DNA from: Candidatus Dormiibacterota bacterium
GTDB taxonomy: Bacteria; Chloroflexota; Dormibacteria; Dormibacterales; Dormibacteraceae
DNA: 64,000 nucleotides
Assembly: GCA_024280995.1 (NCBI GenBank)
Contig: JAMXLM010000043.1
Location: forward strand, 1-64,000
Reading direction: 5' to 3'
The notes below the pieces were generated by a model that had not been told where the DNA came from, did no database searches, and worked only from the letters and a program-made list of their open reading frames with translations. Every line of letters begins with the position of its first letter. Position 1 is the first letter of the stretch. Positions 4,000-39,648 of this stretch are shown here, piece after piece. A program made the position numbers and the translations under genes.

Positions 4000-4182
4000 C
4001 TCAGCAGTCCCGCGCGAGCCGATGCAACGGATCTTCGGCGTCCATGCAGGCCATCTGCGTTGTTGCCGCCTGCGCTACTCGCTCACGCATCAACGGATGC
4101 GCTCGCTCCGTTGCTCGGCGGCGCCTAGCATCTGGCCCGCCTGGGCCGCCGAATCTGTCGTTGATCGCTCGCGCGTGACTGC
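4000..4182. other. 183-bp gap between sufB and sufD with short hairpins
   Basis: This is the only sizeable gap inside the SUF operon. It holds short inverted repeats, including CGCATC-AACG-GATGCG near 4086-4101 and GGCCC-GCCT-GGGCC near 4134-4147. No good ribosome site or credible small gene is seen. It could be an RNA processing or stability site that sets different levels of SufCB and SufD, or a decayed repeat insertion. Both ideas are inference. Confidence 0.45.
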
Positions 4183-6377: not shown

Positions 6378-6379
6378 CT

Positions 6380-19781: not shown

Positions 19782-19788
19782 GGTCGAG

Positions 19789-20388: not shown

Positions 20389-20413
20389 TTTCGCGGGGGC
20401 CCCTCTGATATCC

Positions 20414-21457
20414 GTGCAGCCTGAGGCTGTCGAGCTCGTCGTCTTCGCGGCGGTCGCGCTGGTGGTTGCGCTCATGGTTGCCCAGCCGGCCGCTTCCCGC
20501 CGCGCCCTCCTCGTAAGGGGCGGCGTCGGGCTTGCGGGCACCGGCGCGATCGTCGCGGTGCCGACCTTCGACCTTGCGCTGCTCGTCCTACTCGTCCTCG
20601 CCCTGCTGCACTCGGTGGTCGACGCCAAACGCAGCTTTGCCGCGCGCCTCCGCCTTCCCGCGATGGGCGTCGGATTGCTCGCCCTCGCGATCGTCTTCGC
20701 CCGCGCCCTCGGCCCCGACGTGCTCGACCGGTTCGCGGCCGTCGGCCTGGCGGCGGGGCTGGCCGCAGTGGTCGGGGTGCTGCCCTATGTGCACTCGTTC
20801 GACGCGGAAGAGCCGGCTTCCTCGTCGCCGATCGCCTGGCTGGCGTACGTCGGACCGGCCGTCGCGGTCGTGGTCGTCGCCGACGCGCAGGGCCTCCTTG
20901 GGGCGGATGCCGGGGCGGCATTCAGCGCCTGCCTGCTGGGGCTCGGGCTCATCAACATGGTGTGGGGGAGCGTCGCCTCGTGGTTGACCGAGACCACTTC
21001 TGCGGCGTGGCGATATTCGTTCATGGCCGACTGGGGACTCGCCCTGTGCGGCTTCGGGATCACGCTGGTCGACGGACGGCGGGCGGCGCTGATCGTGCTG
21101 TTCTCGATCGTGCTTGGACGGCTGCCGCTCTATCTCGCGTCGCGTGAGGCGGTGCGCGAAAGGGTTGTCACCGAACGGCCGATCAACCTTCTCGTCGCCG
21201 CCGCGCTCGCGGGGTCGGCGCCGTTCGCGGGCTTCTCGGCGCGCGTGCTCCTGCTGCGCGGCGCGACGCAGCTCTACTGGCCGCTGGCGTTGGTCCTCGC
21301 GCTCGGCATGCTGCTGTGGCTGCCGGCCTCCCTTCGGCTCGGGCGCAGCCTCGGGGTGCCGCGCGGTCGCCACGCCCTGGGTGTGGCGGCGGTGCTGGCC
21401 CTCAACGTCGCCGTCGGGCTCTACCCGCTGCCTCTGCTGGCGGCGGCACGCCTGTGA
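20414..21457 (+). CDS. Second NuoN/M-like membrane protein
   Basis: The 347-residue protein has about ten membrane segments. 'GSAPFAGFSARVLLLRGA' near residue 262 matches the 'PPLAGFxGKxLLF' helix of NuoL/M/N-type antiporter subunits, followed by two helices of the same layout. It is shorter than a full NuoN (about 480 residues) and lacks obvious conserved lysines. It begins with GTG. Its stop overlaps the next gene's GTG. Function as a subunit of an ion-translocating or structural membrane complex is inferred. Confidence 0.55.
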   Translation: MQPEAVELVVFAAVALVVALMVAQPAASRRALLVRGGVGLAGTGAIVAVPTFDLALLVLLVLALLHSVVDAKRSFAARLRLPAMGVGLLALAIVFARALGPDVLDRFAAVGLAAGLAAVVGVLPYVHSFDAEEPASSSPIAWLAYVGPAVAVVVVADAQGLLGADAGAAFSACLLGLGLINMVWGSVASWLTETTSAAWRYSFMADWGLALCGFGITLVDGRRAALIVLFSIVLGRLPLYLASREAVRERVVTERPINLLVAAALAGSAPFAGFSARVLLLRGATQLYWPLALVLALGMLLWLPASLRLGRSLGVPRGRHALGVAAVLALNVAVGLYPLPLLAAARL

Positions 21458-25405: not shown

Positions 25406-25762
25406 CTAGACCAGCGACGCGTACCGGTCGAAGATCTCGCGCAGCTCGCCTGGCGGCTCGACGCGGTGCTTCTTCATCACGTCGAACAGGCTCAGGATGT
25501 GCCGCACGCCCGCGAGCGTCACACCCTTCTCGCGCGTCAGGTGCTGGATGACCTGCACCTTGCTGATGTCCCTCTGCGAATAGCGCCGGCGGTTGGTCGA
25601 CGTTCGGTGCGGCGCGATGAGGTGCGCGTCCTCGTACAGCATCAGCGTCCGCGGATGGGTCTCGAGGATCTCCGCCGCGACGCTGATCGTGTACAGCGGC
25701 TTGTCGAGATCGCTGAAAGTCTGGTGCTGCGGTCGGCCGCTCCTGGGTTCCATCAACTTCAT
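25406..25762 (-). CDS. MerR/HspR-like DNA-binding regulator
   Basis: The 118-residue protein has a MerR-type winged helix: 'TISVAAEILETHPRTLMLYEDAHLIAPHR', then 'NRRRYSQRDISKVQVIQHLTREKGVTLAGVRHIL'. It is closest in flavour to HspR, the repressor of heat-shock operons, but there are no chaperone genes beside it. It follows tadC with an ATGA overlap (ATG 25760-25762) and is the last gene of the tadB-tadC transcript. It has no effector-binding domain or sensing cysteines. Confidence 0.8.
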   Translation of the reverse strand: MKLMEPRSGRPQHQTFSDLDKPLYTISVAAEILETHPRTLMLYEDAHLIAPHRTSTNRRRYSQRDISKVQVIQHLTREKGVTLAGVRHILSLFDVMKKHRVEPPGELREIFDRYASLV

Positions 25763-26631
25763 TGCAGCGACTTCAACACCTGGATGATGGCCGGCCCGAG
25801 CAGCACGATCCACAACACGGGAAAGATGCAGCCGACCATCGGAAACACCATTCGGGACGATGCCTGGGCCGCGCGCTCCTGCGCGCCCTGCCGCTGCCTG
25901 CGCCGCATCTCCGTCGCCTGCACGCGCAGCAGTCGGGCGATGGGCACGCCCATCTGATCCGACTGGACGATCGATTCCACGAGGTGGTGCAGGTCGGGCA
26001 CGCCGGCCGTGTCCGCCATGTGCTCGAGGGCCGACATTCGCGGCCGGCCGAGCCGGATCTCGCGCAGGACCTTGCCGATCTCGTCGCCGAGTGCGTTGTG
26101 GAACCGCTCGGTGATGCTGAGCAACCCTTCGTCAAGACTCATGCCGGACTCGACCACCAGGGTGAGCAGGTCGGTCGCCTCGGCAAGCGAGCGCTGGATC
26201 TGCCGCCGGCGCCGGCTGATCAGCTGGTTGAGCCAGAGCGTCGGTGTGATGAATCCCAGGACGGCCATCGACGCGCCGGCAAGCGGCGCCTCGAAGAGGA
26301 TCGGCATGTTCAGCGGCAGCAGAAGCCCGAGGCCGAGGCCGACGATCGCGAAAAGTGCGGCCACGCTGTAGCGCACCGCCTGGAAGCCCGCGGGCGTCAG
26401 GTTGCCGGGGTTGCCGGCCTGGCTCAGTCGCAGCCGGAGCTGGATCGCGGTCGCGGCGGGCAGGTGGGACACCGGGCGCAGCATCGTCTCGAGCTGCTTG
26501 ACGAACGGCCTGGGCGGGGTGACGACCTGCCCGCCGTTCGCCGTCGCCGCGCGGTACTGGTCCAGCGCGATGAAGTAGGCGACGACGATCGCCCCGCAGA
26601 CCAGCCCTGCCACCAGCGCGAAGGGATTCAT
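25759..26631 (-). CDS. tadC: TadC, inner-membrane platform protein of the Tad pilus
   Basis: The 290-residue protein has the type II secretion F domain (about residues 150-280, 'SLAEATDLLTLVVESGMSLDEGL') flanked by membrane helices near 5-22, 88-135 and 265-287. TadB and TadC form the membrane platform on which the CpaF motor acts to assemble Flp-type pili. It follows tadB by four bases and overlaps the MerR-like gene. Confidence 0.88.
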   Translation of the reverse strand: MNPFALVAGLVCGAIVVAYFIALDQYRAATANGGQVVTPPRPFVKQLETMLRPVSHLPAATAIQLRLRLSQAGNPGNLTPAGFQAVRYSVAALFAIVGLGLGLLLPLNMPILFEAPLAGASMAVLGFITPTLWLNQLISRRRRQIQRSLAEATDLLTLVVESGMSLDEGLLSITERFHNALGDEIGKVLREIRLGRPRMSALEHMADTAGVPDLHHLVESIVQSDQMGVPIARLLRVQATEMRRRQRQGAQERAAQASSRMVFPMVGCIFPVLWIVLLGPAIIQVLKSLQ

Positions 26632-26635
26632 CGCC

Positions 26636-27580
26636 TCACGTCTCCAGCGCCGTCATGCGGCGGATCAGAAGGTTGCCGATCAGGATCATGAAGCCGGCGA
26701 AGACGAGCATCACGGCGCCGATGAAGCTGCTCGTCATCGGCGCGTAGTAGCCGGGGACGAAGACGTACAGCCCCAGCCCGAGAAGGATCGGCAGGCCGGT
26801 GATGATGCTGGCGGATGCGCGGGACTGGGCGGTGAGCACGCTCATGTCGCGCTTGGTCTGCAGTCGGTCGCGCAGCGTGTCGGAGATGTTGTCGAGCACC
26901 TCGGCGAGGTTTCCGCCCACGCGCGTGTGCAGGAGGATCGCGGTGACTATGAACTCGAGGTCCGGGCTGTTGATCCTCAGAAGCAGCGCGCTCAACGCAT
27001 CCTCGACCGACGTGCCGAGGGTGATCTCGGTCGCCACGCGCTCGAACTCGGTCGACACGGGCGGCTGCGACTTGGCGGCCACCGTCTCGAGCGCCCGGTC
27101 GATCGCGTAGCCGGTCTTCAGCGAGTTGGAGAGCAGCTGCAGCATGCTCCCGAGCTGATCGTTGAACTGCTGCTGGCGGCGTCGCTGCAGATAGGCGACG
27201 ACCAGCGGGGGTACCAGGAACCCGATCACGCCGAGGATCACCGGGCCGAGCGAGAACCCGAACCGGAACACGCCGATCAGCGCCCCGAGCGCCACGGCGC
27301 TGATCCGGATCAAGAGGTACTCCGGCGCCGAGACGTTCAGGCCGGCCCGCGCGAGGTCTTCGCTGAGCGTCGGCTTGCCCGCGACCTTTCGCCGCTGGCT
27401 CAAGTTCTCGACCGCCGGCCGCAGCAGACGCTCGACCAGCTCGAGTGGAGTGGCGCGTGGACCCATCGGGTCCGCCGGCCCGCCGACGCGCTCCCTGGCG
27501 ATCTTGTCGATCGACCAGAAGAAGACGATGATCGCGGCCGCCATCGGGATGGCGACGATGGTTGCGGCAGGCAGGTTCAC
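26636..27580 (-). CDS. tadB: TadB, inner-membrane platform protein of the Tad pilus
   Basis: The 314-residue protein has an N-terminal helix, two central helices (about residues 95-135), the type II secretion F domain ('QLGSMLQLLSNSLKTGYAIDRALE', 'RVGGNLAEVLDNISDTLRDR') and two C-terminal helices. This is the TadB layout. GTG 27580 is the start. It sits between cpaB and tadC, all on the minus strand. Confidence 0.88.
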   Translation of the reverse strand: MNLPAATIVAIPMAAAIIVFFWSIDKIARERVGGPADPMGPRATPLELVERLLRPAVENLSQRRKVAGKPTLSEDLARAGLNVSAPEYLLIRISAVALGALIGVFRFGFSLGPVILGVIGFLVPPLVVAYLQRRRQQQFNDQLGSMLQLLSNSLKTGYAIDRALETVAAKSQPPVSTEFERVATEITLGTSVEDALSALLLRINSPDLEFIVTAILLHTRVGGNLAEVLDNISDTLRDRLQTKRDMSVLTAQSRASASIITGLPILLGLGLYVFVPGYYAPMTSSFIGAVMLVFAGFMILIGNLLIRRMTALET

Positions 27581-27593
27581 TGGCCCGGCGCTC

Positions 27594-28352
27594 CTAGAAG
27601 AGGCCGGGAAAGCTTGACTTGATGAACTGAAGAGTGACGCCGTGCGCGTCGTCCACGCTCTGACAGTTCGGGTCCGGCGCCTGGCTGCCGGGGGCGTAGT
27701 CGTGATAGGACTCGAGCGTGTACTTGAGCGACGCGTTGGCCTGGAACCAGGTGATGATCTCGGCCTGGCACTGGGTGACCACGACAGTGAGGCTCGAGGC
27801 GCTGCCGCCGGTCGCGGTCTGCGTACCGACCTTGATGATGTGCAGCTGGGTGAAGATCGTCTTGGTCGCGACGTGACCTGAGGTGGAAACGGTCGCGATC
27901 ACCGAGATGTAGTCCCCCGGTTGGATGTAATCGGCGACCCCGACCTGCTCGCTCGTGGGGATCGTCATCGCGACGTAGCCGTGCGGGATGGGCAGGAACC
28001 CGGACTCCGAGCCCAGCGCCTCGGTCGCTTTGACGACGTCGTTCGAGGTCACCGCCTGGCCTGAGCTGATTGTGACCAGGGGGATCATGCCCTCCACCTC
28101 GGCCACGTTCGTGAAGTAGACCTTCGGGTAGCCCGACGGAACCTGGATGGTCTTGGTCGACAGCGATCCGGCCGGCACCGGGATGCGGGGTTTCAGGTCG
28201 GTGGTCGCGAACACGACCGACTCCTGCGGGCTGTTGCCGGACGCGCTCGCGTTGAGCGCGACGAGCACGAAGGCGACGATCACCAGGAGTGCCAGCAGGA
28301 ACCCCAGGAGCGTGAACGGACGGCGGGAGGTAATTGCGCTAAACGTCCGCAA
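27594..28352 (-). CDS. cpaB: CpaB/RcpC-like Tad pilus assembly protein
   Basis: The 252-residue protein has one N-terminal membrane helix (about residues 13-35) and an SAF-like domain ('TTDLKPRIPVPAGSLSTKTIQV'), then the RcpC-type region 'ADYIQPGDYISVIATV'. CpaB is a periplasmic or cell-surface part of the Tad machine. The start is TTG at 28350-28352, since no ATG is near. It is divergent from the tadE genes, with the promoter region between them. Confidence 0.8.
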   Translation of the reverse strand: MRTFSAITSRRPFTLLGFLLALLVIVAFVLVALNASASGNSPQESVVFATTDLKPRIPVPAGSLSTKTIQVPSGYPKVYFTNVAEVEGMIPLVTISSGQAVTSNDVVKATEALGSESGFLPIPHGYVAMTIPTSEQVGVADYIQPGDYISVIATVSTSGHVATKTIFTQLHIIKVGTQTATGGSASSLTVVVTQCQAEIITWFQANASLKYTLESYHDYAPGSQAPDPNCQSVDDAHGVTLQFIKSSFPGLF

Positions 28353-28420
28353 GGCCGACCAATCATAGGCAAGATATGCCGGTGCCGAGCCCCCCTAAAT
28401 TGATACTCAAAAAGGGACAT
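28353..28420. promoter_or_regulatory. Divergent promoter region cpaB / tadE
   Basis: The region contains an unusually AT-rich stretch for this genome (28396-28415, TAAATTGATACTCAAAAAGG). It offers an extended -10-like TGATACT and is followed by AAGGGA five bases before the TTG of tadE. This is why I place the tadE start at 28421 and not at ATG 28376. Confidence 0.5.
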
Positions 28421-28960
28421 TTGTCACAGCGCGGGCAGTCCCTGGTCGAGTTCGCGGTGTCCTCCGTCGTGCTGCTTTTGCTGGTTGGGGGACTGGTCGA
28501 CATCGGCCGCTCGGTCTACGTCTCCCAGGCCCTTTCCAGCGCCGCCCGCGAGGGGGCGAGGCACGGGGCCTGGTACGACGCGCCGACCCTGTCCCACCCC
28601 TACCTCGACGACACCGAGATCAAGTCCACCGTCGATTCCGAGCTGGCGGCCATAGGCTTGCCCGCGTCGGTGCTGAAGAACCCCGGCACGACCTGTCCCA
28701 CCCCGACTGACGGCAACGCGTTCCACAACCCGCCGTTCGCGTCGACGGCATACCCGACCGGCGCCAACCAGGTCTGGCTGTACGTCTGCTACGACAACAC
28801 CAACGGTCTGGACTTCACGAGCCCCGCCACCAACCAGGGACAGCTCGACCTGAACGTGATCGTGCTCTACACCTACGGGCCGATCACGCCCCTGGTCAAG
28901 TCGCAGTTCGGCATCTTCCAGGTGGCCGCCAACCAGCACATCACGGTGCAGGGGAGTTGA
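28421..28960 (+). CDS. TadE-like minor pilin
   Basis: This 179-residue protein opens with 'RGQSLVEFAVSSVVLLLLVGGLVDIGRSVYVSQALSSAAREGAR', which is the TadE motif (described as residues about 4-47). It has a single hydrophobic helix with a glutamate near its start, and is probably processed by a prepilin peptidase. The rest is exported and has two cysteine pairs. The next gene starts in a TTGA overlap. Role: minor pilin or pseudopilin of the Tad system. Confidence 0.8.
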   Translation: MSQRGQSLVEFAVSSVVLLLLVGGLVDIGRSVYVSQALSSAAREGARHGAWYDAPTLSHPYLDDTEIKSTVDSELAAIGLPASVLKNPGTTCPTPTDGNAFHNPPFASTAYPTGANQVWLYVCYDNTNGLDFTSPATNQGQLDLNVIVLYTYGPITPLVKSQFGIFQVAANQHITVQGS

Positions 28961-29499
28961 GAGACCCGAATCGAAGCCAGCGGTCTCAAGCCCTGGTCGA
29001 ATTCTCGCTGGTGGCCCCCGTCCTCCTTCTCCTTCTGTTCGGCGTGATCGACCTCGGGCGCGCGATCTTCTACTACGACACGGTCAGTCACGCGGTCACG
29101 GCGGGTGCGCGCACGGCGATTCGCGCGTCGACGCCGCTTCCGACGAACGCCGACGTCCTGAGCGCCGTCAACACGCAGATGGCCGGGGCGCCGGTGACCG
29201 AGCCGTGCTCTCAAGGCCCGATCAGCGAGGCGACGCCGCCCGCCAACGCCGGGTGGCTGTACGTCACCGAGCCGAGCCCGCCGGCTGCCGTCGAGACATC
29301 GCCGCCGCCGAACGCGCCTGGGGGTGAGTTCGCGGCGATAGCGACCGGCTCTTGCAGCGCCGTCAACCCTGCCACCGGCAACGACCAGCTGCAGGTCACG
29401 ATCCGGTTCAACCTGGTGCTGATAACGCCGATCGTCGCTCAGGCGACCGCCAACCACATCGTCATCTCCGCCAGCGCGGTCTTCCGCACCGAGTATTGA
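28957..29499 (+). CDS. Second TadE-like minor pilin
   Basis: The 180-residue protein has the same layout as its neighbour: 'SQALVEFSLVAPVLLLLLFGVIDLGRAIFYY' at residues 10-40 and a small exported domain with proline-rich loops. TTG 28957 overlaps the upstream stop, and the tadG-like ATG overlaps its own stop (TGATG). Tandem TadE paralogues before a TadG are common in Tad clusters. Confidence 0.8.
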   Translation: MRDPNRSQRSQALVEFSLVAPVLLLLLFGVIDLGRAIFYYDTVSHAVTAGARTAIRASTPLPTNADVLSAVNTQMAGAPVTEPCSQGPISEATPPANAGWLYVTEPSPPAAVETSPPPNAPGGEFAAIATGSCSAVNPATGNDQLQVTIRFNLVLITPIVAQATANHIVISASAVFRTEY

Positions 29500-31448
29500 T
29501 GGCGAAAGAACGCCAGGGCGGGCAGGCGATCGTGATCATCGCGTTGATGCTCACCGTGCTCATCGGCATGGTCGCGATCGCGATCGACGGCTCGCGCGCG
29601 TATGCCATGCAGCTCGACCTGCAGGACGCCAGCGACGCGGCCGCGCTGGCGGCCGGCGACAGCTATCAGCAGGCAGGCAGCTACGTCACCGCGGAGCAAG
29701 CCGCGACAACCAGCTTCGGCATGAACATGCGGATCTACGCGTCGCCGTCGTGCTCGGGCTACGGCACGCCCGGAGCGAGCCCCTGGACTGCAACCTGCAC
29801 CTACCCGGACGGCACCGTCCTCACCGACGTCTCGCGAAACCTCGGCGCGCAGGGAGCCCGGTTCACGATCACCGCGACCCGGGGTCTGCAGCTGCAGTTC
29901 TCTCGGGTGCTGACAAACGGAACCGTGCCCAACCTGGGAGCGACGTCCAACGGCAACGTCGACAACCTTCTCTACAGTCCCGCAGTCGCCGCGCTCAGGC
30001 AGTCCGGGTGCGGGGGCACGGCCGGGTCCGCGCTAAGCGTCAACGGCATCGGGACGCTTCGCGTCGTCGGCGACGTCGTCGCCAACGGCTCGGTGTCGGT
30101 GGTGGCGGGCTCGCTGCGCGTGGGAGGTGACACCTACGCGCGCTGCCAGCCCGCGGTCGCCGGCGGAGTCAACGGTTGCTACCCGAGCGGAGCGTCGACC
30201 CCGTGTTCCTTCCCCGATGTGGCGGGCGCGACGCGCTCAGGCGTCAGGCTGCCCGATCCCCGCTACCCTGCGCCGGCCGCCGGCGGGTCGGTGAGCTTCG
30301 CGACCAACGACGTGATCGTCCAACCCGGCATCTACACGGCGCCCGTCTCCATCGGAGGAAGGCACTGCTGGTTTCTCAGTGGGGGCGTCTACGAGTTCCT
30401 CGGCGGGACCGTCAACAACGGGGACTTCGTCAGCAACGAGCTGAAGCCTCCGGATGAGCCGAACCCGAGCAACAACACCCTGCGCTCGACGGCGCAGTTC
30501 TGGGACTCGGACGGCGTGTCCTGCTCCGGCCAGGCCGAGGTGGCGACCAACGCCGGACCGCGCGGCGTCCCTCAGGGCCACTGGTCGTTCGTGCTGACCT
30601 CGACCCGCACCGATACATACGCCGGCGTTTCCTACACGCGCGAGAGCGCTCCGTCGATGTGCTACCAGACCGACGTGAACAGCAACGGCCAGAACGTCCT
30701 CGTCGCGGTGAGCAACGTGCCGGGGGCCACCGCGTACAACATCTACGCGTCGCAGCTGGGCGGAACCTGCACCGGGCCGTTCGGGCTGCTGACGTCGCTT
30801 GCGGTCACGTTTCCGGTCCAGAACACGAGCACGACTCCCTGTCCGTCACCGATAGGCGGAGGGTGCTCGCTGAACAACGAGAGCGTCAGGCTCGACGCCA
30901 CGGTGCTCACGACCACGTTCACGCCCAGCTCGAGCGCGGCTCCGGGGACGTCCGGAGCGTATCCGCCCGCCGGTGAGCGCGCCGCCCTCGCGGTCGGTCT
31001 TCCCAATCAGAATCCACCGCGCGGCCCCGCGGCCACCGGAGACCGCGCGAACGAGAACGACTGCAAGAGCGTGGAGAATGCGTACGCCGCCTGCCCGGCC
31101 GCCATCACCCCGGGCGCCGTCGAGCTCTACTTCCCGGCCGGGAGCTGCTTCACCAACAGCACCGGGGACAATTACCTCTTCAGCGGCTACCAGTACAACT
31201 GGATCGCGGTGCATCAGCCCTCCTCGAACACGTGCACCGACGCCATCGGCGCGAGCTCGAACTCGGCCTACGTCGGTCTCTTCTACGCGCCGGGCGCGAC
31301 CCTGAGCATCACCTCACCCAACGTGTTCGACTCGGCGGGGACGGGCGGCGTGATGGCCGGGGCGGTGACGTTCACCGGGACGCTTCCGTCGATCAACCAG
31401 GACCCCGGATATTCGCCCGTGCCGCCGGCGGCGCGATTGGTCAGCTAG
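29499..31448 (+). CDS. Large TadG-like exported pilus-associated protein
   Basis: The 649-residue protein begins with a TadG/Flp-like helix ('GGQAIVIIALMLTVLIGMVAIAIDGSRAYA' at residues 7-36). A long cysteine-containing exported part follows. A segment near residues 400-440 ('VAVSNVPGATAYNIYAS') resembles a fibronectin type III strand pattern. The rest has Gly/Ser/Asn-rich repeats as in surface proteins. It is larger than most TadG proteins (about 400-500) and could be a pilus-tip adhesin. That is inference. It ends 10 bases from the convergent CpaF fusion gene. Confidence 0.75.
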   Translation: MAKERQGGQAIVIIALMLTVLIGMVAIAIDGSRAYAMQLDLQDASDAAALAAGDSYQQAGSYVTAEQAATTSFGMNMRIYASPSCSGYGTPGASPWTATCTYPDGTVLTDVSRNLGAQGARFTITATRGLQLQFSRVLTNGTVPNLGATSNGNVDNLLYSPAVAALRQSGCGGTAGSALSVNGIGTLRVVGDVVANGSVSVVAGSLRVGGDTYARCQPAVAGGVNGCYPSGASTPCSFPDVAGATRSGVRLPDPRYPAPAAGGSVSFATNDVIVQPGIYTAPVSIGGRHCWFLSGGVYEFLGGTVNNGDFVSNELKPPDEPNPSNNTLRSTAQFWDSDGVSCSGQAEVATNAGPRGVPQGHWSFVLTSTRTDTYAGVSYTRESAPSMCYQTDVNSNGQNVLVAVSNVPGATAYNIYASQLGGTCTGPFGLLTSLAVTFPVQNTSTTPCPSPIGGGCSLNNESVRLDATVLTTTFTPSSSAAPGTSGAYPPAGERAALAVGLPNQNPPRGPAATGDRANENDCKSVENAYAACPAAITPGAVELYFPAGSCFTNSTGDNYLFSGYQYNWIAVHQPSSNTCTDAIGASSNSAYVGLFYAPGATLSITSPNVFDSAGTGGVMAGAVTFTGTLPSINQDPGYSPVPPAARLVS

Positions 31449-31463
31449 CCGCCCGGGGCTAGC
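31444..31463. terminator. Palindrome carrying both stop codons of convergent genes
   Basis: GCTAGCC (31444-31450) and GGCTAGC (31457-31463) form a perfect 7-bp stem with a 6-base loop. The TAG stop of the tadG-like gene and the TAG stop of the CpaF fusion gene lie in opposite arms. It is a likely bidirectional terminator. Confidence 0.65.
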
Positions 31464-34400
31464 CCGGGACTTCGACCTCGGCCGTCGCCACGGCCTCCGC
31501 GGGGGCGGCGCCGTTCGCCTCGTGACCCTGGGCGTGGCTCTCGATGTGCGCGATTCGGCGCTGCAGCATCGCCGCCGCCTTGTCATCGCCGAGCTCCTCG
31601 TAGCGCTGGACCGCTCCTTGCCATGCCGCCCTGGCGTCCTCGTGCCGGCCGAGACCCCACAGCGCGCCGCCCCGGTTGGAAAGCGCCTCCGCCCGCTCGC
31701 GCGTGTGGTCGGCGGGCAGCAGCTGGAGGGTCGAGTCGACAAGCCGCAGCACCTCCTCGAAAGCACCGATCGCGAGCGCGTTGTTCGCCGCCCGGCCAAG
31801 GAAACCCGCCGTCCGGGCGGCGTCCGCGGCCGTTCCCGCCTGGTAGAGGTGGTAGCCGATCTCTCCGGCGTGGTCGCCGGCGGCCCTGCCGTAGACCCGT
31901 TCGAGCGTCTCGGCCACGGCCAGGTGGTACGCCTGCAGGCGCGGAAGCGGCAGCGAACCCAGCACTCGCCGGCGGACGAGGCCGTGGGCGAAGCGATACG
32001 TGTCCTTGCCGGCAGCCGCGATGAAGTGCCCGCGCACCGACTCGTCGAGCGCGTCGCGCAGCTCATGGCCGGACAGCTCACCGAAAGCCTCAAGGAGCGG
32101 TACGTCGAAGTCGCGGCCGATCACAGCGGCCGCGACCAACATCCTCTGGGCGGGCTCGCTCAAACGCTGGATGCGGCGGCCGATCAGCCCACGCACGCTC
32201 TGCGCCAGCTCGAGGTCCTCCTCCGTGTAGCTCGACTGCGCGTGCGCTCCGCCGCCGAGGATGCTCTCGGACTCGGCCATGTAGAGCAGCGAGTGCTCCA
32301 CGAACAGCGGGTTGCCCTCGGTCGCGGCCTGGATGCCGATCAGCTGAACCGGCGTCAGCTGAGCCTGGGCCTGGGCGGCCACCAGTCGCTCGACCTCCTG
32401 GTCGCTGAGCCGGCCGAGCGCGATGCGGCTCGCGCGCCGGCGCTTCAGGAGTCGCGACAGTGCGTTTCCGAACGGCAGCCCGGAGTCCACCTCGGTGTCC
32501 CAGTAGGTCCCGAGCATGACCATGCGGCTGCCGTTGATCCGCTGGGCCAGGTCGCGCAGCAGCGCGACGGTCGCGTCGTCGGCCCAGTGCAGGTCGTCGA
32601 GGAGGACCAGCAGCGGCCTGGCGCCCTGGATCCCGGAAAGGAACTCATAGACCGCCTTGAACAGCTGCTCGCGGATCCTGTCCGGGGGCACCTCCGGCGC
32701 GGCATTCATGCCCCGAACCTTCTGCCTCAGGCTGGGGGCGAGCGCGGCGAGCAGGGGCCCATGGTGCCCCGCGGCCTCCTGCAACGCCCTGGCCGTGTGC
32801 GCCGCCACCGCGCCGGCAAGGACGTCGCGGATCGGACCGAACGGCTCGTCCTCCCTCTCCATGCAGCGCCCGCTCAGCACGAGCCATCCATCAGCCGCCG
32901 CCGCGTCCGCCACCTCTTTGGCGAGCCTTGTCGCGCCGATGCCGGGCGCACCGCTGAGGAACACGAACGACCCGTTGCCGCTCGCCGCCCTATCCATCGC
33001 CAGGTGGATGTCGAGCCGCTCCTGCTCGCGGTCGACGAAGCCGTCGGCCGAGGAGATGACACGCGGTGCCTCCTTCACCTCGCCTGGGAAGACTTCGTGG
33101 AGCCGCCAGCGGTCGGGGAAGCCCTTGAGCTTGTAGCGACCACGCAGAGCGAACTTCACCTCGGTGATCGGTCCCACCAGGTCGCGCACGATCTCCGACG
33201 TCAGGATCTCGCCGCCCTTCGCCTTACCTGCGACACGGGCGGCGACGTTGACCGCCGCGCCGAAGATGTCGCCGCCTTCCTCGACGACCTCCCCCGTGTT
33301 GAGGCCGATGCGGATGCGCATCTTCCTCTCGGGGTTTTGCAGGCTGTACTCGTTGATCGCCTGCTGGATGTCCAGCGCGCACTCGACGCCGTGCCGAGCG
33401 GAGCCGAAGCTGATCATGAAACCGTCGCCGAGACCCTTGATCCTTCGGCCTGCGTGCAGGCTGACCTTGTCCTCGATGATCGTCTCGTACGCCTTCATGA
33501 TCTCGTGCGCCTCGGTGAAGCCGCGGGCCGAGAGAAGGCGCGTCGACTCCTCGACGTCGGTGAACATGATCGTCACGGTTCCCTCGGTCTGGCCGACCGC
33601 CAGGCTGCCGATGATCGTCTCCGCGGTCAATGGCGCGGCGGCGTTGATCGGCTGGCCGAGGCCCTCGGCGATCTCGCGCAGCAGGCCCTGCGACGCGCGG
33701 AAGCCGGCCTCGCCCTGCGGGTAGCGGACGGTCTGCAAAAGGCCGGCCTCGGTCGCGAGCCTCAGCTCTCGGCCTGCCGAATCCTTGCTGATCTTGTTTT
33801 CCTTCGCGTAGTCGCTGGCCTTGAGCTCCGTGCCATCGAAGGCCTCGGTCAGGGCGGGGGCGAGGCGAAGGCTGAGACCTCGGCGTGTAATCACGCTCTC
33901 GATCACGGCCTGGATGCGCCGCGACGCGCCGGCGGGACCGGCGCCGCCTTCCTTCGCGGTCACGGTCGGCAGCAGGCCGCTGAACCCGGACGATGCCGCG
34001 GCCAGCTGACCCAGGGCGGTCGTCGCTCGCGCCATCGCGGTCGCGGCCTCGAGCGCGGCGTGGCCGCCGTCGCCGATCGGCTGGGCGTACTGCGGAGGCG
34101 GCGCAGGCGCCGACGCGATGGGCTGGATGGGCTGCGGCGGCTGGCCCTGCGGGTACACCACCGGGGTGGGAGGCGGAAGCTGCGCGGGTGGCGCGCTCGG
34201 CACCTCGTATGGCGCCGCGGGGGCCGGCGGCGGGCTCGCCGCCTGTAGGTCGGCGACGGCCGCGCGTGCGGCGTCGATGAGCTTGCGCATCTCGTCCTGC
34301 ATCTCCGGGGTCTGCGCGGGAGGCGGCGCCGCGAGATTCGGGGCCGGCGGCGCTGCGGCCGCAGGCCGGTCGGAGCTGAACGGCACGACCACGACCTGGC

Positions 34401-36267
34401 GGACGACGTTCTCGGTCTTGCTCGGCCCGGTGATGAGCGGGTCTTTGACGACCGGCATCATGCTGTCCGAACCGGCCGGGACGTACCGCGACTTCTGCGG
34501 GTCGAACAGGTCCTGGTTGACCTGCACGCCATAGAACGCGGCCTTGTCGAGCGCGGTCGGCACGTAGCCGGTGGCGTTGTACTCGAGGCGCAGGTCGGGA
34601 CCCATGCCCAGCAGGAAGATGTCGCGCAGGATCGGACCGTTGGAGTCGTAGCCGACGACCTCGGCGATCTGAGCCACCTTGCGCCGGCCGTCCGGCATGC
34701 GGGCCTGGTGGACGATGAGGTTCACCGCGGATGCGATCTGCGCGCGCACGGCCTCGAAGGGGATGTCGATCGAGGCCATCATCACCATCGTCTCCAGGCG
34801 GGACAGCGCGTCGCGCGCGGAGTTCGAGTGGATGGTCGACATCGAGCCGTCGTGACCTGTGTTCATCGCCTGGAGCATGTCGAGCGCCTCGGAGCCGCGC
34901 ACCTCGCCGACCAGGATCCGGTCGGGGCGCATGCGGAGGCTGTTGCGAAGCAGCTGCCGGATGGTCAGCTCGCCTTTGCCCTCGACGTTGGGCGGGCGGT
35001 GCTCGAGGGCGATGACGTGCGGGTGGTCGATCTGCAGCTCGGCCGCGTCCTCGATGGTGATCACGCGCTGGTTGTGCGGGATGAATCGCGCGATCACGTT
35101 CAAGGTCGTCGTCTTGCCCGAGCCCGTGCCGCCTGAGACCAGTATGTTCATGCGCCCGAGCACCGCCGCCTGCAGGAACTCCGCCATCGCGGGACTGAGG
35201 CTGCCCTCGTGTTTCAGGTCCTCCATCGCGAGGACCGCGTCCTTGAACTTGCGGATAGTCAGCGCCGGACCGTGGATCGCGGCCGGCCGGATGATCGCGT
35301 TTACGCGGCTTCCGTCCGGAAGGCGGGCGTCGACCATCGGGTTTAGTCCGTCGATGTGGCGGCCGGTCGTCGCGACCATGCGCCTGATCGTCTCGAGCAG
35401 CTGGTTCTCGTCCTCGAAACGGACCTCGGCCTTGGTCAGCACGCCGCGCCGCTCGATGAAGATCTGGTCGGGACCGTTGACCATGATCTCGCTCACCGAG
35501 CGGTCGTGCAGCAGGCTGTCCAGCGGCCCGTAACCGACGGCCGCGCGCAGGATGATGTCGGCGAGCGCCGACTTCTCCTGCGTGTTGAGGACGATGTTGT
35601 CCTCGAGGAGGAAGCGGTCGAGGTGCGTGCGCACCGCACGCGAGAAGGCGATCGTGTCGCCGGTGGTGAGGCCGACGTCGCGGATCAGCGCGAGCCGGTC
35701 GCGGAAGTCGTTCGCGAGCTTGTTCAGGTCGCGCCCCTGGCGGGCCGCGGCCTCGAGGATGTCGCTGCGGCGCCGCCGAGGGGTTCCGCCCGCGGGCAGG
35801 GCCGCGACCGCGGTCGTCACCGTCCACGTGTCGACGAACTGCGTGTCGAGCAAGGAGCCCGCGACCGCGACGGCCGGGATGACCTTGCCAACCTCGGGCA
35901 GCCGGATCTTGATCGTGATCCCGTCGCTGTAAGGCTGGACCGCGGGGTCGATGTAGGCGGCGATCCACTCGCCGTCCTTGAATCGGAGGATTGCTTTTCG
36001 GGTGGCGCTCTGGTCGCCCGGGTCGGGCTCGAGCGAAGGATCGTCGACCGAGCCGAAGACGATGTACTTGATGTCGCGGATGGGGACCAGGCGCGGCCGG
36101 GTCGGGTCGTGGGCGGAGTAGACGGGAAATCCCTCGGCCGTGACCGAGCGCGCGTCGGACTCGCCGTCCTCCAGGCCACCGTCGAGCCGGTGGACGACGA
36201 CCTTGATCCGTGGCGAAGGCGCTTCGCCGGACAGTTGTGAGGGAGTCTCGAGGGTGATGTCGGCCAT
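31459..36267 (-). CDS. CpaF/TadA pilus ATPase fused to adenylate cyclase, STAND-like ATPase and helical repeats
   Basis: This 1602-residue protein joins domains usually found apart. Residues 1-165 are an unrecognised N-terminal domain. Residues about 225-580 are a CpaF/TadA motor ATPase with 'YGPLDSLL', Walker A GGTGSGKT (379-386), Walker B 'ILVGEVRGSEALDML' and 'GHDGSMSTIHSNS'. Residues 635-735 are a proline-rich linker and 785-850 a winged-helix-like segment. Residues 893-1060 are a class III cyclase with metal ligands Asp904 and Asp948, Lys944, adenine-specifying Asp1000, Asn1007 and Arg1011, so cAMP production is expected. Residues 1075-1380 are an AAA/STAND ATPase whose P-loop reads GAPGIGATR, with Ala1112 in place of lysine. 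A helical repeat tail follows. It is last in the operon with the STAS and GGDEF genes. Confidence 0.88.
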   Translation of the reverse strand: MADITLETPSQLSGEAPSPRIKVVVHRLDGGLEDGESDARSVTAEGFPVYSAHDPTRPRLVPIRDIKYIVFGSVDDPSLEPDPGDQSATRKAILRFKDGEWIAAYIDPAVQPYSDGITIKIRLPEVGKVIPAVAVAGSLLDTQFVDTWTVTTAVAALPAGGTPRRRRSDILEAAARQGRDLNKLANDFRDRLALIRDVGLTTGDTIAFSRAVRTHLDRFLLEDNIVLNTQEKSALADIILRAAVGYGPLDSLLHDRSVSEIMVNGPDQIFIERRGVLTKAEVRFEDENQLLETIRRMVATTGRHIDGLNPMVDARLPDGSRVNAIIRPAAIHGPALTIRKFKDAVLAMEDLKHEGSLSPAMAEFLQAAVLGRMNILVSGGTGSGKTTTLNVIARFIPHNQRVITIEDAAELQIDHPHVIALEHRPPNVEGKGELTIRQLLRNSLRMRPDRILVGEVRGSEALDMLQAMNTGHDGSMSTIHSNSARDALSRLETMVMMASIDIPFEAVRAQIASAVNLIVHQARMPDGRRKVAQIAEVVGYDSNGPILRDIFLLGMGPDLRLEYNATGYVPTALDKAAFYGVQVNQDLFDPQKSRYVPAGSDSMMPVVKDPLITGPSKTENVVRQVVVVPFSSDRPAAAAPPAPNLAAPPPAQTPEMQDEMRKLIDAARAAVADLQAASPPPAPAAPYEVPSAPPAQLPPPTPVVYPQGQPPQPIQPIASAPAPPPQYAQPIGDGGHAALEAATAMARATTALGQLAAASSGFSGLLPTVTAKEGGAGPAGASRRIQAVIESVITRRGLSLRLAPALTEAFDGTELKASDYAKENKISKDSAGRELRLATEAGLLQTVRYPQGEAGFRASQGLLREIAEGLGQPINAAAPLTAETIIGSLAVGQTEGTVTIMFTDVEESTRLLSARGFTEAHEIMKAYETIIEDKVSLHAGRRIKGLGDGFMISFGSARHGVECALDIQQAINEYSLQNPERKMRIRIGLNTGEVVEEGGDIFGAAVNVAARVAGKAKGGEILTSEIVRDLVGPITEVKFALRGRYKLKGFPDRWRLHEVFPGEVKEAPRVISSADGFVDREQERLDIHLAMDRAASGNGSFVFLSGAPGIGATRLAKEVADAAAADGWLVLSGRCMEREDEPFGPIRDVLAGAVAAHTARALQEAAGHHGPLLAALAPSLRQKVRGMNAAPEVPPDRIREQLFKAVYEFLSGIQGARPLLVLLDDLHWADDATVALLRDLAQRINGSRMVMLGTYWDTEVDSGLPFGNALSRLLKRRRASRIALGRLSDQEVERLVAAQAQAQLTPVQLIGIQAATEGNPLFVEHSLLYMAESESILGGGAHAQSSYTEEDLELAQSVRGLIGRRIQRLSEPAQRMLVAAAVIGRDFDVPLLEAFGELSGHELRDALDESVRGHFIAAAGKDTYRFAHGLVRRRVLGSLPLPRLQAYHLAVAETLERVYGRAAGDHAGEIGYHLYQAGTAADAARTAGFLGRAANNALAIGAFEEVLRLVDSTLQLLPADHTRERAEALSNRGGALWGLGRHEDARAAWQGAVQRYEELGDDKAAAMLQRRIAHIESHAQGHEANGAAPAEAVATAEVEVPG

Positions 36268-37262
36268 CAGCTGAATCTCTCGGGCGGGCGACGCCGATCG
36301 AGCACCCATTTTGAGCCCGGCATCCGCTTTGCGACCCCTTTTACCTCGGACGCGCGCGCGGCCACCGCCGCGGGGCTGGCGTAGCTTCCCGGCTCGGCGA
36401 TCACGATGCCGATCGACACCGACACGAGCGGGTTGCGCAGAATGTTGCCGCTGCGCTCTTCGGACTCGATCCAGCCTCGCTCGCGGTCGAGCGGGTCGTA
36501 GAGCGCGGGGATCGCCTGGTCGAACCGGGTCGTGATCTCGCCCGCGACCTTCTCCGCCACCGCGGGCTCGGTGAGGATCACGAAGTCGTCGCCGCCGACG
36601 TGTCCGGCGAAGTGAAGGTTCGACGGAGTCTCCTCGAGGACCTCGAGGATGATCGTGGCCAGCGTCTTGATGACATCGTCGCCGCGCAGGAAGCCGTAGT
36701 GGTCGTTGTAACTCTTGAAGCCGTCGATGTCCGGATAGAGGACCGCGAACCGTTGGTCGACCGCGAGCCGGCGGCTGATCTCACGCAGGATGTCCGCGTT
36801 GCCGCTCATCCCGGTCAGCGGGCTCAGACCGCGGGCGGTGGTCGAGCGTGTCATGACCGCGCGCAGCCTCGCCACCAGCTCTTCCGGGATGAACGGCTTG
36901 GTCACGTAGTCGTCCGCGCCTGACATCAGGTGCTCGACCTTGTCCTTCAGCGAGTCGCGCACCGTGAGGAACACGACTGGGATGAGGCGCGTGCGGAAGT
37001 CCTCGCGCAGCTCGGCCATGATCTGGTCCCCGGTCGTCTCGCCGAGCATGAGGTCGAGCAGGATGATGTCGGGTCTCCACTGGATCGCCGCCTCGTGCGC
37101 CAGCCGGCCGTCGCTCACCGTCACGCACTCGAAGCCGGCGCGTTCGAGGACCCGCTTGACGAGCCGAAGGACCTGCTCGTCGTCGTCGACGACCAGCGCG
37201 ACGTCGCGATGGAGGAATGCCGAATGCGAGCGGTCCGAGGCGGCATCACGAGTCACGGTCAC
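36267..37262 (-). CDS. Response regulator with REC and GGDEF domains
   Basis: The 331-residue protein has a receiver domain (residues 20-140, phosphoacceptor Asp70, Lys122) and a GGDEF domain (about 150-325) whose signature reads GGDDF at 223-227. The 'DIDGFKSYNDHYG' metal and substrate region is intact, so it may make c-di-GMP. No RxxD inhibitory site is seen. GTG 37262 overlaps the preceding stop (GTGA), and its own stop overlaps the CpaF-cyclase ATG (TGATG), which couples it tightly to the pilus motor. Confidence 0.88.
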   Translation of the reverse strand: MTVTRDAASDRSHSAFLHRDVALVVDDDEQVLRLVKRVLERAGFECVTVSDGRLAHEAAIQWRPDIILLDLMLGETTGDQIMAELREDFRTRLIPVVFLTVRDSLKDKVEHLMSGADDYVTKPFIPEELVARLRAVMTRSTTARGLSPLTGMSGNADILREISRRLAVDQRFAVLYPDIDGFKSYNDHYGFLRGDDVIKTLATIILEVLEETPSNLHFAGHVGGDDFVILTEPAVAEKVAGEITTRFDQAIPALYDPLDRERGWIESEERSGNILRNPLVSVSIGIVIAEPGSYASPAAVAARASEVKGVAKRMPGSKWVLDRRRPPERFS

Positions 37263-37474
37263 GACGATTGCTTCGGCGTCCGTGGAATCTTCTCGGTCAA
37301 CGCGACCGCGCGTTCGGCGGCGTCCCGGATCTCTTTGACGTCGGCCTTGACCGCCTCGGCGTCGTCGGTCTCGTCGGGGATCAGCTCGCAGTACTGGACG
37401 ATGACCGCGAGCAGGTTGCGAAGGTCGTGGACCAGGACGCGCATCGGGTCTTCGGCGATCGGTTCGGTCGTCAT
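37259..37474 (-). CDS. Orphan histidine-kinase dimerisation (HisKA-like) mini-protein
   Basis: This 71-residue protein contains only an H-box-like helix, 'VHDLRNLLAVIVQYCELI', and a second helix, 'AVKADVKEIRDAAERAVALTEKI'. That matches the two-helix dimerisation and phosphotransfer domain of histidine kinases. It has no ATPase domain. The gene before it encodes a free HATPase, so the two could act as a split kinase that phosphorylates the REC-GGDEF protein encoded next. ATG 37472-37474 overlaps the upstream stop (ATGA). Function is inference. Confidence 0.65.
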   Translation of the reverse strand: MTTEPIAEDPMRVLVHDLRNLLAVIVQYCELIPDETDDAEAVKADVKEIRDAAERAVALTEKIPRTPKQSS

Positions 37475-37884
37475 AGCTTTTTCACCAGCCTCCAACGGTT
37501 GATGTCGCCGTCGCGTTCGTACCCGAGCTCGTCGAGCAGCGAACGGGCCATCGCCAGGCCGCGGCCGTCCTCGTCGTCGTGTCCGGGCATCTCTCGGGCG
37601 AGCTGCTCGCCGACCGGCGGTCCGAAATCGACGAGTGACGCGACGGCCTTGCCGTCGCGAAGCTCAAGGGAGTACTCGACCGGCCGGCTCGTGTGGCGCG
37701 GACGGCCGTGGGTGAGCACGTTGCCGCCGATCTCCCCGAGCGCGGTCTCGAAAAGGATGAGGGCTCGATCGCCTCCATCGCGACCGAGCTCGCGCCGCAG
37801 CATGTCGACGGATCGGTGAATGACGTCAAGACCGTCGTCAACGCGGGAAAGCGAGGCGCGGAACTCAAAACGACTGCTCCTCAC
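37471..37884 (-). CDS. RsbW-like anti-sigma/serine-kinase ATPase
   Basis: The 137-residue protein is a lone HATPase_c domain of the RsbW/SpoIIAB type: N-box-like 'LFETALGEIGGNVLTHG', 'LVDFGPPV' and 'DEDGRGLAMARSLLDEL'. Such proteins bind and inhibit a sigma factor or another partner and phosphorylate a STAS antagonist. The STAS protein is encoded directly upstream. GTG 37884 is the start. No sigma factor gene is in the window. Confidence 0.8.
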   Translation of the reverse strand: MRSSRFEFRASLSRVDDGLDVIHRSVDMLRRELGRDGGDRALILFETALGEIGGNVLTHGRPRHTSRPVEYSLELRDGKAVASLVDFGPPVGEQLAREMPGHDDEDGRGLAMARSLLDELGYERDGDINRWRLVKKL

Positions 37885-37888
37885 CGGA

Positions 37889-38230
37889 TCAGAGTCCGGT
37901 GAGGGCTTCCTCGACTGTCGCGTAGTAGGGGAAAACCCGATCCAGGGTGGTCAGCTCGAGGACGACGCGCACCTGCTGGTTGGGCGCGGCCAGCCGGAGC
38001 TCGCCCTGGCTGTTGCGAATCTGCTTCAGGGCGGCGATCACAGACCCGAGGCCGGTGGAGTCGACGAAGCTCACGCCCTCCATGTCGATGACGACCTTGG
38101 CGGGGCTGTTCCTGACCGCCTCGCCGATCGCCTCCTTCAAGACGGGCGCGCCGGCCACGTCGAGCCTTCCCGATGGGGAAAGCACGGTGACTCCGTTGTC
38201 GGCGGGGCGGGTCTCGACTTCCAGCGCCAT
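37889..38230 (-). CDS. STAS-domain anti-sigma factor antagonist (RsbV/SpoIIAA-like)
   Basis: The 113-residue protein is a single STAS domain with the phosphorylation site Ser58 in 'FVDSTGLGSVIAAL'. In partner switching, the dephosphorylated form captures the RsbW-like kinase. The divergent REC-PP2C phosphatase at 38509 is its likely activator. It is the first gene of the operon that ends with the CpaF-cyclase fusion. A TATGCT nine bases before its ATG could be a -10 box on the minus strand. Confidence 0.88.
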   Translation of the reverse strand: MALEVETRPADNGVTVLSPSGRLDVAGAPVLKEAIGEAVRNSPAKVVIDMEGVSFVDSTGLGSVIAALKQIRNSQGELRLAAPNQQVRVVLELTTLDRVFPYYATVEEALTGL

Positions 38231-38508
38231 GGCCGGAAGAGCATATGGCAGCGAAGCGCGGATTCAGCCTCACTTTGGTGCCCATCGCCGGGCTCACCTT
38301 GCGTCTGCGCTGGTCTAGGCGGCCGGGCGCCTTCGGCGCTGAAGCCGGCGTCAGGGGGCCCGGCGCTCACCCGCTGCCCCCGCGACCACGACGCGGGGAC
38401 CCCAGCAGGTGTTGCGTTCCTCGTCGCGCCACCCCTTCCTTGGCTCCGGCCGCCGATACCGCGCATACGCTGCGGCGCCCCGGCGCCGGGCACCTAGACT
38501 TCCTGGCC
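38231..38508. other. 278-bp divergent region between the rsbV-like and rsbU-like genes
   Basis: The region should hold the promoters of the two signalling transcripts. TAGACT at 38495-38500 serves the plus strand. TATGCT (minus, about 38240-38245) may serve the minus strand. The middle is GC-rich with short repeats and no convincing gene, although an open plus-strand frame runs through it to the phosphatase. Confidence 0.45.
38495..38500 (+). promoter_or_regulatory. -10 box of the REC-PP2C gene, leaderless type
   Basis: TAGACT ends eight bases before GTG 38509. This fixes the start, because the open frame extends 88 codons further upstream. Confidence 0.55.
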
Positions 38509-39648
38509 GTGAGTGTGGAAGCAGGCTCCGATCGAGTGCTCGTGGTCGACGACGACGAGGCCCTCGCGCGGGTGATGGCGCGCACCCTGCGGGGCCGCGG
38601 ATTCGAGTGCGACGTGGCCCTCAGCGGCGCCGAGGCCCGCAAGCTGCTGGAGGCGCAGGACTACGCGGTCGCTCTCCTGGACGTGCGCCTTCCGGACGAA
38701 TCGGGGTACGGCCTGCTCGAGCATTTGAAGTCGGCTCGGCCGAACGCCGCGGTCGTGATGATCTCGGGCGTCGACGACGCAGAGCTCGGCAAGGCCGCGA
38801 TGGAACACGGGGCCAACGGCTACTTCGTCAAGCCCGTGAGCGCGACCCAGCTCTACCTCCTCGTCATCGGCAACGTTCGGCGCCGCACCAGCGAGCTCGA
38901 GCAGCGGCAGAGCGTCGACAGGCTGCAGGTCATGGTCGATCAGCGGTCGGACCAGGTGCGCCGGGCCGCCGAGCTGCAGTCGGGGATGCTGCCGGTGTCG
39001 CCTTTCAAGGAGGACGGCTTCGAGATCGCCGCGCACTTCACCGCCGCGCGCGAGATCAGTGGCGACTTCTACGACTGGTACCGCTCCGACGACGCGCACG
39101 TCACGCTCTCGCTCGGCGACGTGATGGGCAAGGGCCTGACCGCTTCGCTGCTGATGGCCACCGCCCGCGCCGCGCTTCGCGGTGTGATGGGCCTCTCGCC
39201 GCTCGACAGCGGGGTGAAGCAGGCCGCGAGCGTGATGCTGGACGCGCTGCAGGTCAACCAGGCGTACGTGACTCTGTTCCACTTCACCTACGACCAGCGG
39301 TCGGGCGACGTGGCGTATGTCGACGCGGGGCACGGACACGCGAGAGTGCTGCGTGGCGAGGTGGGGCAGGAGCTGCTCGGGGAGAGAAGCGCGCCGATCG
39401 GCATGTTCCCGGAGACCGACTACGCGACCGGCCAGGTCAACCTCCGCCCGGGCGATGCGATGGTCGTGTTCTCGGACGGACTCCTGGACCTGCGACCCGA
39501 CCTCGCCATCCGCGACGTGCAGCTTCCCTTCGAGGCGCGCCAGGCGCGGTCGGCGCAGGAGATGGTCGACGTTCTGGCTCGCGGCGCGAGGGATCGCGAG
39601 CTCGCGGATGACGTCACGGTGCTTGCATTGAGACGGCTTCCTCTCTAA
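38509..39648 (+). CDS. RsbU-like response regulator with PP2C (SpoIIE) phosphatase
   Basis: The 379-residue protein has an N-terminal receiver domain (Asp58, Lys108), a short coiled linker with 'LQSGMLPVSPF', and a SpoIIE-type PP2C domain ('GDFYDWYRSDD', 'GDVMGKGLTASLLMATAR', 'SDGLLDL', 'DDVTVLALR'). It should dephosphorylate the STAS protein encoded divergently, under control of a histidine kinase, possibly the one downstream. The start GTG is placed from the -10 box. Confidence 0.9.
   Translation: MSVEAGSDRVLVVDDDEALARVMARTLRGRGFECDVALSGAEARKLLEAQDYAVALLDVRLPDESGYGLLEHLKSARPNAAVVMISGVDDAELGKAAMEHGANGYFVKPVSATQLYLLVIGNVRRRTSELEQRQSVDRLQVMVDQRSDQVRRAAELQSGMLPVSPFKEDGFEIAAHFTAAREISGDFYDWYRSDDAHVTLSLGDVMGKGLTASLLMATARAALRGVMGLSPLDSGVKQAASVMLDALQVNQAYVTLFHFTYDQRSGDVAYVDAGHGHARVLRGEVGQELLGERSAPIGMFPETDYATGQVNLRPGDAMVVFSDGLLDLRPDLAIRDVQLPFEARQARSAQEMVDVLARGARDRELADDVTVLALRRLPL

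Follow-up and report, generated by a model that had tools for sequence, protein, structure and literature searches.

A Tad-pilus motor ATPase of the CpaF/TadA type and a class III nucleotidyl cyclase were found in one reading frame of 1602 residues within a 64,000-nucleotide stretch of DNA (the window; contig JAMXLM010000043.1, assembly GCA_024280995.1) from Candidatus Dormiibacterota bacterium, whose family comprises uncultured soil bacteria. The motor–cyclase fusion was confirmed as genuine, conserved and clade-limited. The protein is read here as a Tad-pilus motor with a tethered adenylate cyclase, in which motor assembly would concentrate the cyclases and local cyclic AMP (cAMP) would report the state of the pilus; judged from the sequence, the probability of this reading was put at roughly one half.

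The open reading frame of the fusion extended over 31459-36309 on the reverse strand, and the ATG at 36267, from which all residue numbers were counted, was likely the start codon of the gene. The 1602 residues from this ATG contained zero internal stops. An earlier note on this DNA had described a single 1602-codon frame with a CpaF/TadA ATPase, a proline-rich linker, a class III cyclase with all catalytic residues, an AAA/STAND-like module and a repeat tail. The frame, the ATPase, the linker and the cyclase were all borne out. In Pfam, T2SSE was matched at residues 245-521 (4e-68, 230 bits versus a cut-off of 24.9), and the nearest solved relatives of the motor core were CpaF structures (E 2e-101, ahead of all others among 41 matched PDB sequences). 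Walker A of the CpaF part kept its lysine, K385, in 26 of 26 aligned rows. Based on T2SSE, Walker A and the tad neighbours, the N-terminal part is predicted to be a Tad motor of the CpaF/TadA kind; its match to TIGR03819 (NCBIfam, TadA family conjugal transfer-associated ATPase) remained below the cut-off at 327 versus 373 bits. The barrels in front of the motor had a distant likeness to DUF6982 below the Pfam cut-off (E 0.012, 16.1 versus 24.5 bits) and weak SH3/Sm/Tudor-like fold matches, and FHA, the mark of class III CpaF proteins, was not among the Pfam matches of the protein. The Pro/Ala-rich linker carried two conserved helix-like segments, near residues 652-676 and 737-768. Moreover, Guanylate_cyc was matched at residues 893-1049 (1e-18, 67.9 versus 21.9 bits) and AAA_16 at 1077-1245 (7e-28, 98.7 versus 32.6 bits). 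The repeat tail was weakly supported, as TPR_12 at 1525-1579 was below its cut-off (8e-4, 20 versus 30.1 bits). The N-terminal tandem beta-barrel, the winged helix before the cyclase, the missing lysine of the STAND-like module, a cyclase-less sister clade and an upstream set of STAS, HATPase, HisKA-only and response regulator–GGDEF genes went beyond the earlier note.

Genome contigs were scanned with peptides of the window's fusion, a query from which diverged, independent motor–cyclase fusions could escape. The scan returned 32 loci (designated L; genomes and contigs are designated G and C), all titled as Chloroflexi or Dormibacterota metagenome bins, and in 18 of them, from other bins, the fusion frame was near full length (L014 included, with a masked stretch). 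The remaining 14 comprised eight contig-cut loci, two broken frames (L019, L039), two cyclase-less ends (L035, L037), the contig-cut L036, which resembled L035 and L037, and the masked L038. The P-loop of CpaF and Asp904 of the cyclase shared one frame in 25 aligned rows, window included, in agreement with the covalent link between motor and cyclase proposed earlier. None of 25 rows was interrupted by a stop codon within residues 640-890, which the earlier note had named as a sign of two falsely joined genes; the other such sign, absence in close relatives, was not seen either, and the fusion frame was present in 15 of the 17 genomes of the genus. The alignments differed in their rows: L040 was left out of one, L032 stops before the cyclase, stretches of L014 and L038 are masked, and the cyclase of L038 was not scorable. 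L014 was kept in the residue-count alignment; L014, L019 and L023 were left out of the structure-prediction alignments. Ratios of nonsynonymous to synonymous substitution rates (dN/dS) were calculated for nine pairs that each included the window. They lay at 0.03-0.11 in the motor and 0.06-0.28 in the winged helix; the cyclase had 0.08-0.25, the STAND part 0.19-0.31 and the linker 0.28-0.44. Hence, the cyclase was under purifying selection. Furthermore, the window's genome had eight T2SSE matches and ten cyclase matches, which coincided at the fusion gene only; the other nine cyclase matches lay clear of any T2SSE match.

The six catalytic residues of the cyclase were kept in 27 of 27 rows, the adenine-specifying Lys/Asp pair among them. 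The six residues presumably comprise two metal-binding Asp, this substrate-specifying Lys/Asp pair and the transition-state Asn and Arg. The nearest solved relative was the adenylyl cyclase Ma1120 (1e-29), which in the cyclase alignment was itself without the Asn. The domain looks active, and we infer that its product would be cAMP. In the STAND-like module, position 1112 of Walker A was never lysine: all 27 rows had A, T, M, V or G there, and the first Walker B Asp was kept in 25 of 25. In a pattern scan of nine cyclase loci in the window's genome, four had a Walker A match, all with the lysine, and the other five had none. An active STAND ATPase is unlikely because the lysine is missing in every row. 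Thus, the module claimed earlier stood as an AAA_16 domain to which the STAND-like label would apply, but apparently not as an active STAND NTPase, and it probably binds rather than hydrolyses.

The distribution of the fusion was explored in 110 genomes of the class, 42 from the window's family and 68 from elsewhere. A winged helix-turn-helix–cyclase match was present in 28 of the 42 (15/17 in the genus, 13/25 in other genera), and fusion-type matches spanned seven genera in all. Within the genus, the cyclase shared a frame with a whole or partial motor in 15 of 17 genomes; G015 has the motor on a contig that stops within the winged helix, and G004 was without a fused match. Among the 13 matches in other genera, G098 was contig-cut in the linker and G095 had a broken frame. 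None of the 68 class genomes outside the family had a match, a single contig of G083 excepted. This 3.7-kb contig (L101, G083:C220), binned with a genome that belongs to another family, carries TadG and a cyclase piece of 86-88% identity, and it was probably misbinned. Among 400 genomes of the phylum searched at 1e-30, 18 matched the winged helix-turn-helix–cyclase piece, 14 of them from the family and four others with the cyclase part alone. Among the 5000 best plasmid records, none covered 80% of the fusion query. Six candidates for extra fusions (G030:C56, G040:C287, G026:C8, G038:C185, G009:C352 and G002:C157) were rejected as ordinary CpaF proteins of 486-487 amino acids, stop to stop.

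CpaF proteins without the cyclase were found at L035/L059 (both G021) and L037; they stop either behind the winged helix or about 120 residues farther on, at the end of an extra tail. TadG directly followed them, with the same tad genes. The contig at L036 was cut, and L100 (G107) showed only the winged-helix end and then TadG. In a midpoint-rooted tree of 42 motor cores, the fused proteins grouped together (branch support 0.993), and the cyclase-less group was the sister of this fused clade (support 0.983). The masked L038 fell with the cyclase-less group and L032, cut before the cyclase, with the fused one. In another family, L116 (G044:C85) encodes a stand-alone cyclase–AAA–TPR-like protein colinear with the C-terminal module of the fusion (36% identity over about 680 residues). 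The simplest history would be that a CpaF protein with a C-terminal winged helix acquired a cyclase–AAA–TPR-like cassette once; loss of the cyclase in the sister clade is a possible alternative.

The fusion gene sits among tad genes in conserved order, adjoined by the T2SSF, TadE, TadG and RcpC genes (Table 1). The tad locus at 25759-31448, with RcpC, two T2SSF, two TadE and TadG, is arranged in blocks of differing orientations; among the frames scanned, none was recognised as TadZ, Flp pilin or a peptidase. On the other side, the start codon of the fusion and the stop of the response regulator–GGDEF gene overlap as TGATG. A response regulator–GGDEF gene was directly upstream in all 25 non-redundant loci with upstream DNA, two of which (L032, L040) end before the cyclase. 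A HisKA-only gene with the conserved H-[DE]-x-R-N box was present in the same 25 (28 matches, three duplicates), and STAS and HATPase genes in 24, the 25th (L012) being contig-cut. In blastp comparisons with the window's proteins, none of the four genes was detected next to the cyclase-less L036 and L037 (10 kb upstream covered) or L035 (1 kb upstream covered). The cyclase and the upstream signalling genes therefore co-occur in the sampled loci, with only two lineages without them. The HisKA-only gene overlaps both the HATPase gene and the response regulator–GGDEF gene, and its product may serve in phosphotransfer or be one half of a split kinase. Elsewhere in the window, 18126-21457 on the forward strand holds coding-like GC-rich reading frames of 551 and 347 amino acids without Pfam matches, within a tract of strong AT skew.

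Table 1. Coordinates of the fusion gene, its parts and its neighbours in the window (pLDDT, predicted local distance difference test).
Feature	Coordinates	Strand	Remarks
CpaF–linker–winged helix–class III cyclase–degenerate STAND–TPR-like fusion gene	31459..36267	-	1602 aa
N-terminal tandem small beta-barrels	35824..36210	-	residues about 20-148; model pLDDT mostly >90
CpaF/TadA motor core	34498..35619	-	residues 217-590; Walker A GGTGSGKTT intact at 379-387
Pro/Ala-rich linker	33943..34467	-	residues 601-775; 167-216 residues in 24 rows
Winged-helix domain	33661..33933	-	residues about 779-869; also in cyclase-less sister CpaF proteins
Class III cyclase domain	33088..33591	-	residues about 893-1060; D904, K944, D948, D1000, N1007, R1011
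AAA_16/STAND-like module without Walker A lysine	32158..33039	-	residues about 1077-1370
Tail with weak TPR-like match	31462..32157	-	residues 1371-1602
T2SSF platform protein, named TadC by position	25759..26631	-	
T2SSF platform protein, named TadB by position	26636..27580	-	
RcpC/CpaB	27594..28352	-	
TadE-like pseudopilin	28376..28960	+	
TadE-like pseudopilin	28957..29499	+	
TadG-like protein	29352..31448	+	convergent with fusion gene
Response regulator–GGDEF	36267..37262	-	motif GGDDF; stop overlaps fusion start
HisKA-only protein	37259..37495	-	78 aa; H-[DE]-x-R-N box; without ATPase domain
HATPase_c_2 protein	37471..37884	-	anti-sigma family match sub-threshold only
STAS domain protein (anti-anti-sigma-like)	37889..38230	-	
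Response regulator–SpoIIE phosphatase	38245..39648	+	divergent

Class III cyclases act as head-to-tail dimers. In the tethered-cyclase reading, the CpaF part would form the usual hexamer beneath the pilus platform. A winged helix and a single cyclase domain would hang from each subunit on a flexible linker, and the six cyclase domains thus brought together at the ring could pair into three active head-to-tail dimers. Motor assembly would therefore raise cyclase activity, and once the motor is assembled or engaged, more cAMP would be made locally, to be read by the cyclic-nucleotide-binding proteins of the genome. By binding a partner, and not through ATP hydrolysis, the degenerate STAND module and the TPR-like tail would probably keep the cyclase in place or set it free. 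The STAS, HATPase, HisKA-only and response regulator–GGDEF set, probably co-transcribed with the fusion gene, would add a cyclic di-GMP (c-di-GMP) or gating input. The co-transcription, the coupling and the direction of signalling are what we infer from the arrangement of domains and genes. CpaF hexamers were described as C2-symmetric rings in the portions available of PMC11300603 and PMC11656802, and the available portion of PMC13170226 described Caulobacter CpaE as fitted around CpaF and shifting on piliation. The surroundings of the ring may thus follow the state of the pilus and could gate the tails.

Several results weigh against this reading. The supply of cAMP need not depend on the fusion because the window's genome has ten cyclase matches, and motors without a cyclase at this locus show the fusion to be dispensable; it was not found in 13 of the 42 family genomes, some of them incomplete, and one more genome was left unscored. 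The motif of the response regulator–GGDEF protein was GGDDF, not GG[DE]EF, in 28 of 28 loci (three duplicates), and in the structure prediction the cyclase part was poorly modelled past residue 990. Lastly, direct mechanical transmission or stiff rotational coupling is unlikely because the linker is long (167-216 residues) and flexible, which favours tethering.

Signals might also run in the opposite direction, with the cyclase, the STAND-like module and the TPR-like tail serving as a sensor of ATP, a partner or a cyclic nucleotide that tunes the motor, and with cAMP as a secondary matter. STAND-like and TPR modules are usually sensors, a phosphorelay-like gene set adjoins the fusion gene, and the cyclase-less CpaF proteins also end in a winged helix, so this end may already have been a regulatory site before the cyclase came. 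However, six catalytic residues in 27 of 27 rows exceed the needs of a pure sensor, and the STAND Walker A lysine has been lost; this direction was considered unlikely. The long, low-complexity linker with its dN/dS of 0.28-0.44 would also suit a fusion that fixes stoichiometry and place only, the cyclase being constitutively active and anchored near the pilus base. Regulation is suggested instead by the conserved winged helix (dN/dS 0.06-0.28), by the linker segment near 737-768 and by the two-component-like set upstream in all 25 loci with upstream DNA, which makes mere anchoring rather improbable.

That one frame yields two proteins, through proteolysis or an internal start separating motor and cyclase, was regarded as very unlikely. 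M745, before the winged helix, was the same in all 28 rows, and 15 of these had a Shine-Dalgarno-like match ahead of it. Such a match was missing from the other 13, however, and M603, M604 and M660 were equally conserved; the invariance of M745 may come from its place in a helix-like segment that is itself conserved, and two separate products would leave no need to keep the frame intact. That an error of assembly or sequencing had joined two genes was given next to no credence: the named loci are all metagenome bins, but the identical junction recurred in many independent bins from seven genera, the linker changes its length in-frame, and purifying selection was evident.

Possible readers of cAMP were explored in the window's genome, which has eight cNMP_binding matches, six of them over the cut-off. 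A cyclic-nucleotide-monophosphate-binding (cNMP) domain was fused to a ParA/MinD (TadZ/CpaE-like) ATPase at L094:6850-8226 (G000:C18:292849-294222), G000:C45:159789-160997 and L096:8117-9727, the cNMP part of the L096 copy being below the Pfam cut-off. The C18 gene lies between the RcpC and HEAT–CpaF genes, that is, in the TadZ/CpaE position. A match with both domains was present in 37 of the 42 family genomes; among the matches listed outside the family, all span the ParA part only. The C18 copy, which belongs to a Tad operon, has QQAS in the window's genome, as do the 8 orthologs, of 11, that the pattern retrieved, at what we take to be the expected position of the phosphate-binding Arg. The C45 paralog keeps RTAS, and no T2SSE match was present on its contig. 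A HEAT-repeat protein is encoded at L094:8226-9104, in a Tad operon of the window's genome other than that of the fusion, and its gene lies between cNMP–ParA and CpaF. The Tad machine could form a closed local cAMP loop of pilus state and localisation, in which CpaF writes, the TadZ/CpaE-like cNMP–ParA protein reads and a c-di-GMP-type regulator stands beside the motor gene. This idea is doubtful and stays secondary because the Tad-operon copy is without the Arg and the RTAS copy is without T2SSE on its contig.

How pili signal surface contact to the cell is an open question. If the tethered-cyclase reading is true, pilus activity would be tied directly to intracellular signalling, and the fusion would serve as a natural template by which the engagement of pili could be coupled to cAMP. 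With a motor that has a built-in cyclase, one purified protein suffices to ask whether the cyclase rate follows the assembly or nucleotide state. The earlier note knew of no described system of this kind; likewise, no published Tad motor–cyclase fusion, and no published TadZ or CpaE with a cyclic-nucleotide-binding domain, was found in the titles and abstract openings of a full-text literature search, with subscription papers and bioRxiv outside its scope. According to the portion available of PMC12019362, 292 CpaF orthologs fall into three classes by their N-terminus (none, a disordered region or FHA). The motor–cyclase architecture is outside these three classes as given there and would add a further one; it is a new architecture of a known motor.

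The T2SSE core, the Walker A motif and the tad neighbourhood are common to the fusion and Caulobacter CpaF (PDB 8rkd, 9e24), whereas the tandem-barrel N-terminus and the C-terminal extension of about 1000 residues with the cyclase are found on the fusion only. The catalytic domain is shared with class III adenylyl cyclases of the Ma1120/Rv1900c type, and the fusion has the six catalytic residues; unlike in these enzymes, its cyclase is covalently joined to a pilus motor. The stand-alone cassette at L116 has no motor in frame and retains the Walker A lysine (GEPGVGKTS) that the fusion is without. By eye, the cyclase of the L116 protein, which is encoded at about 3050-6390, seems to be without the substrate Lys and the Asn while the STAND lysine is kept, the reverse of the fusion. 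The TOMM system kinase/cyclase fusion (TIGR03903) matches residues 874-1526 of the fusion, a similar cassette with another front end; the match was far below the cut-off (156 versus 706 bits), and no kinase was among the Pfam matches of the fusion. In the Pseudomonas Pil-Chp–CyaB system, as far as the portion available of PMC11656802 describes it, pilus dynamics are tied to cAMP, as is proposed for the fusion; there, a separate motor and cyclase are joined by a chemosensory relay, whereas the fusion would carry both in one chain.

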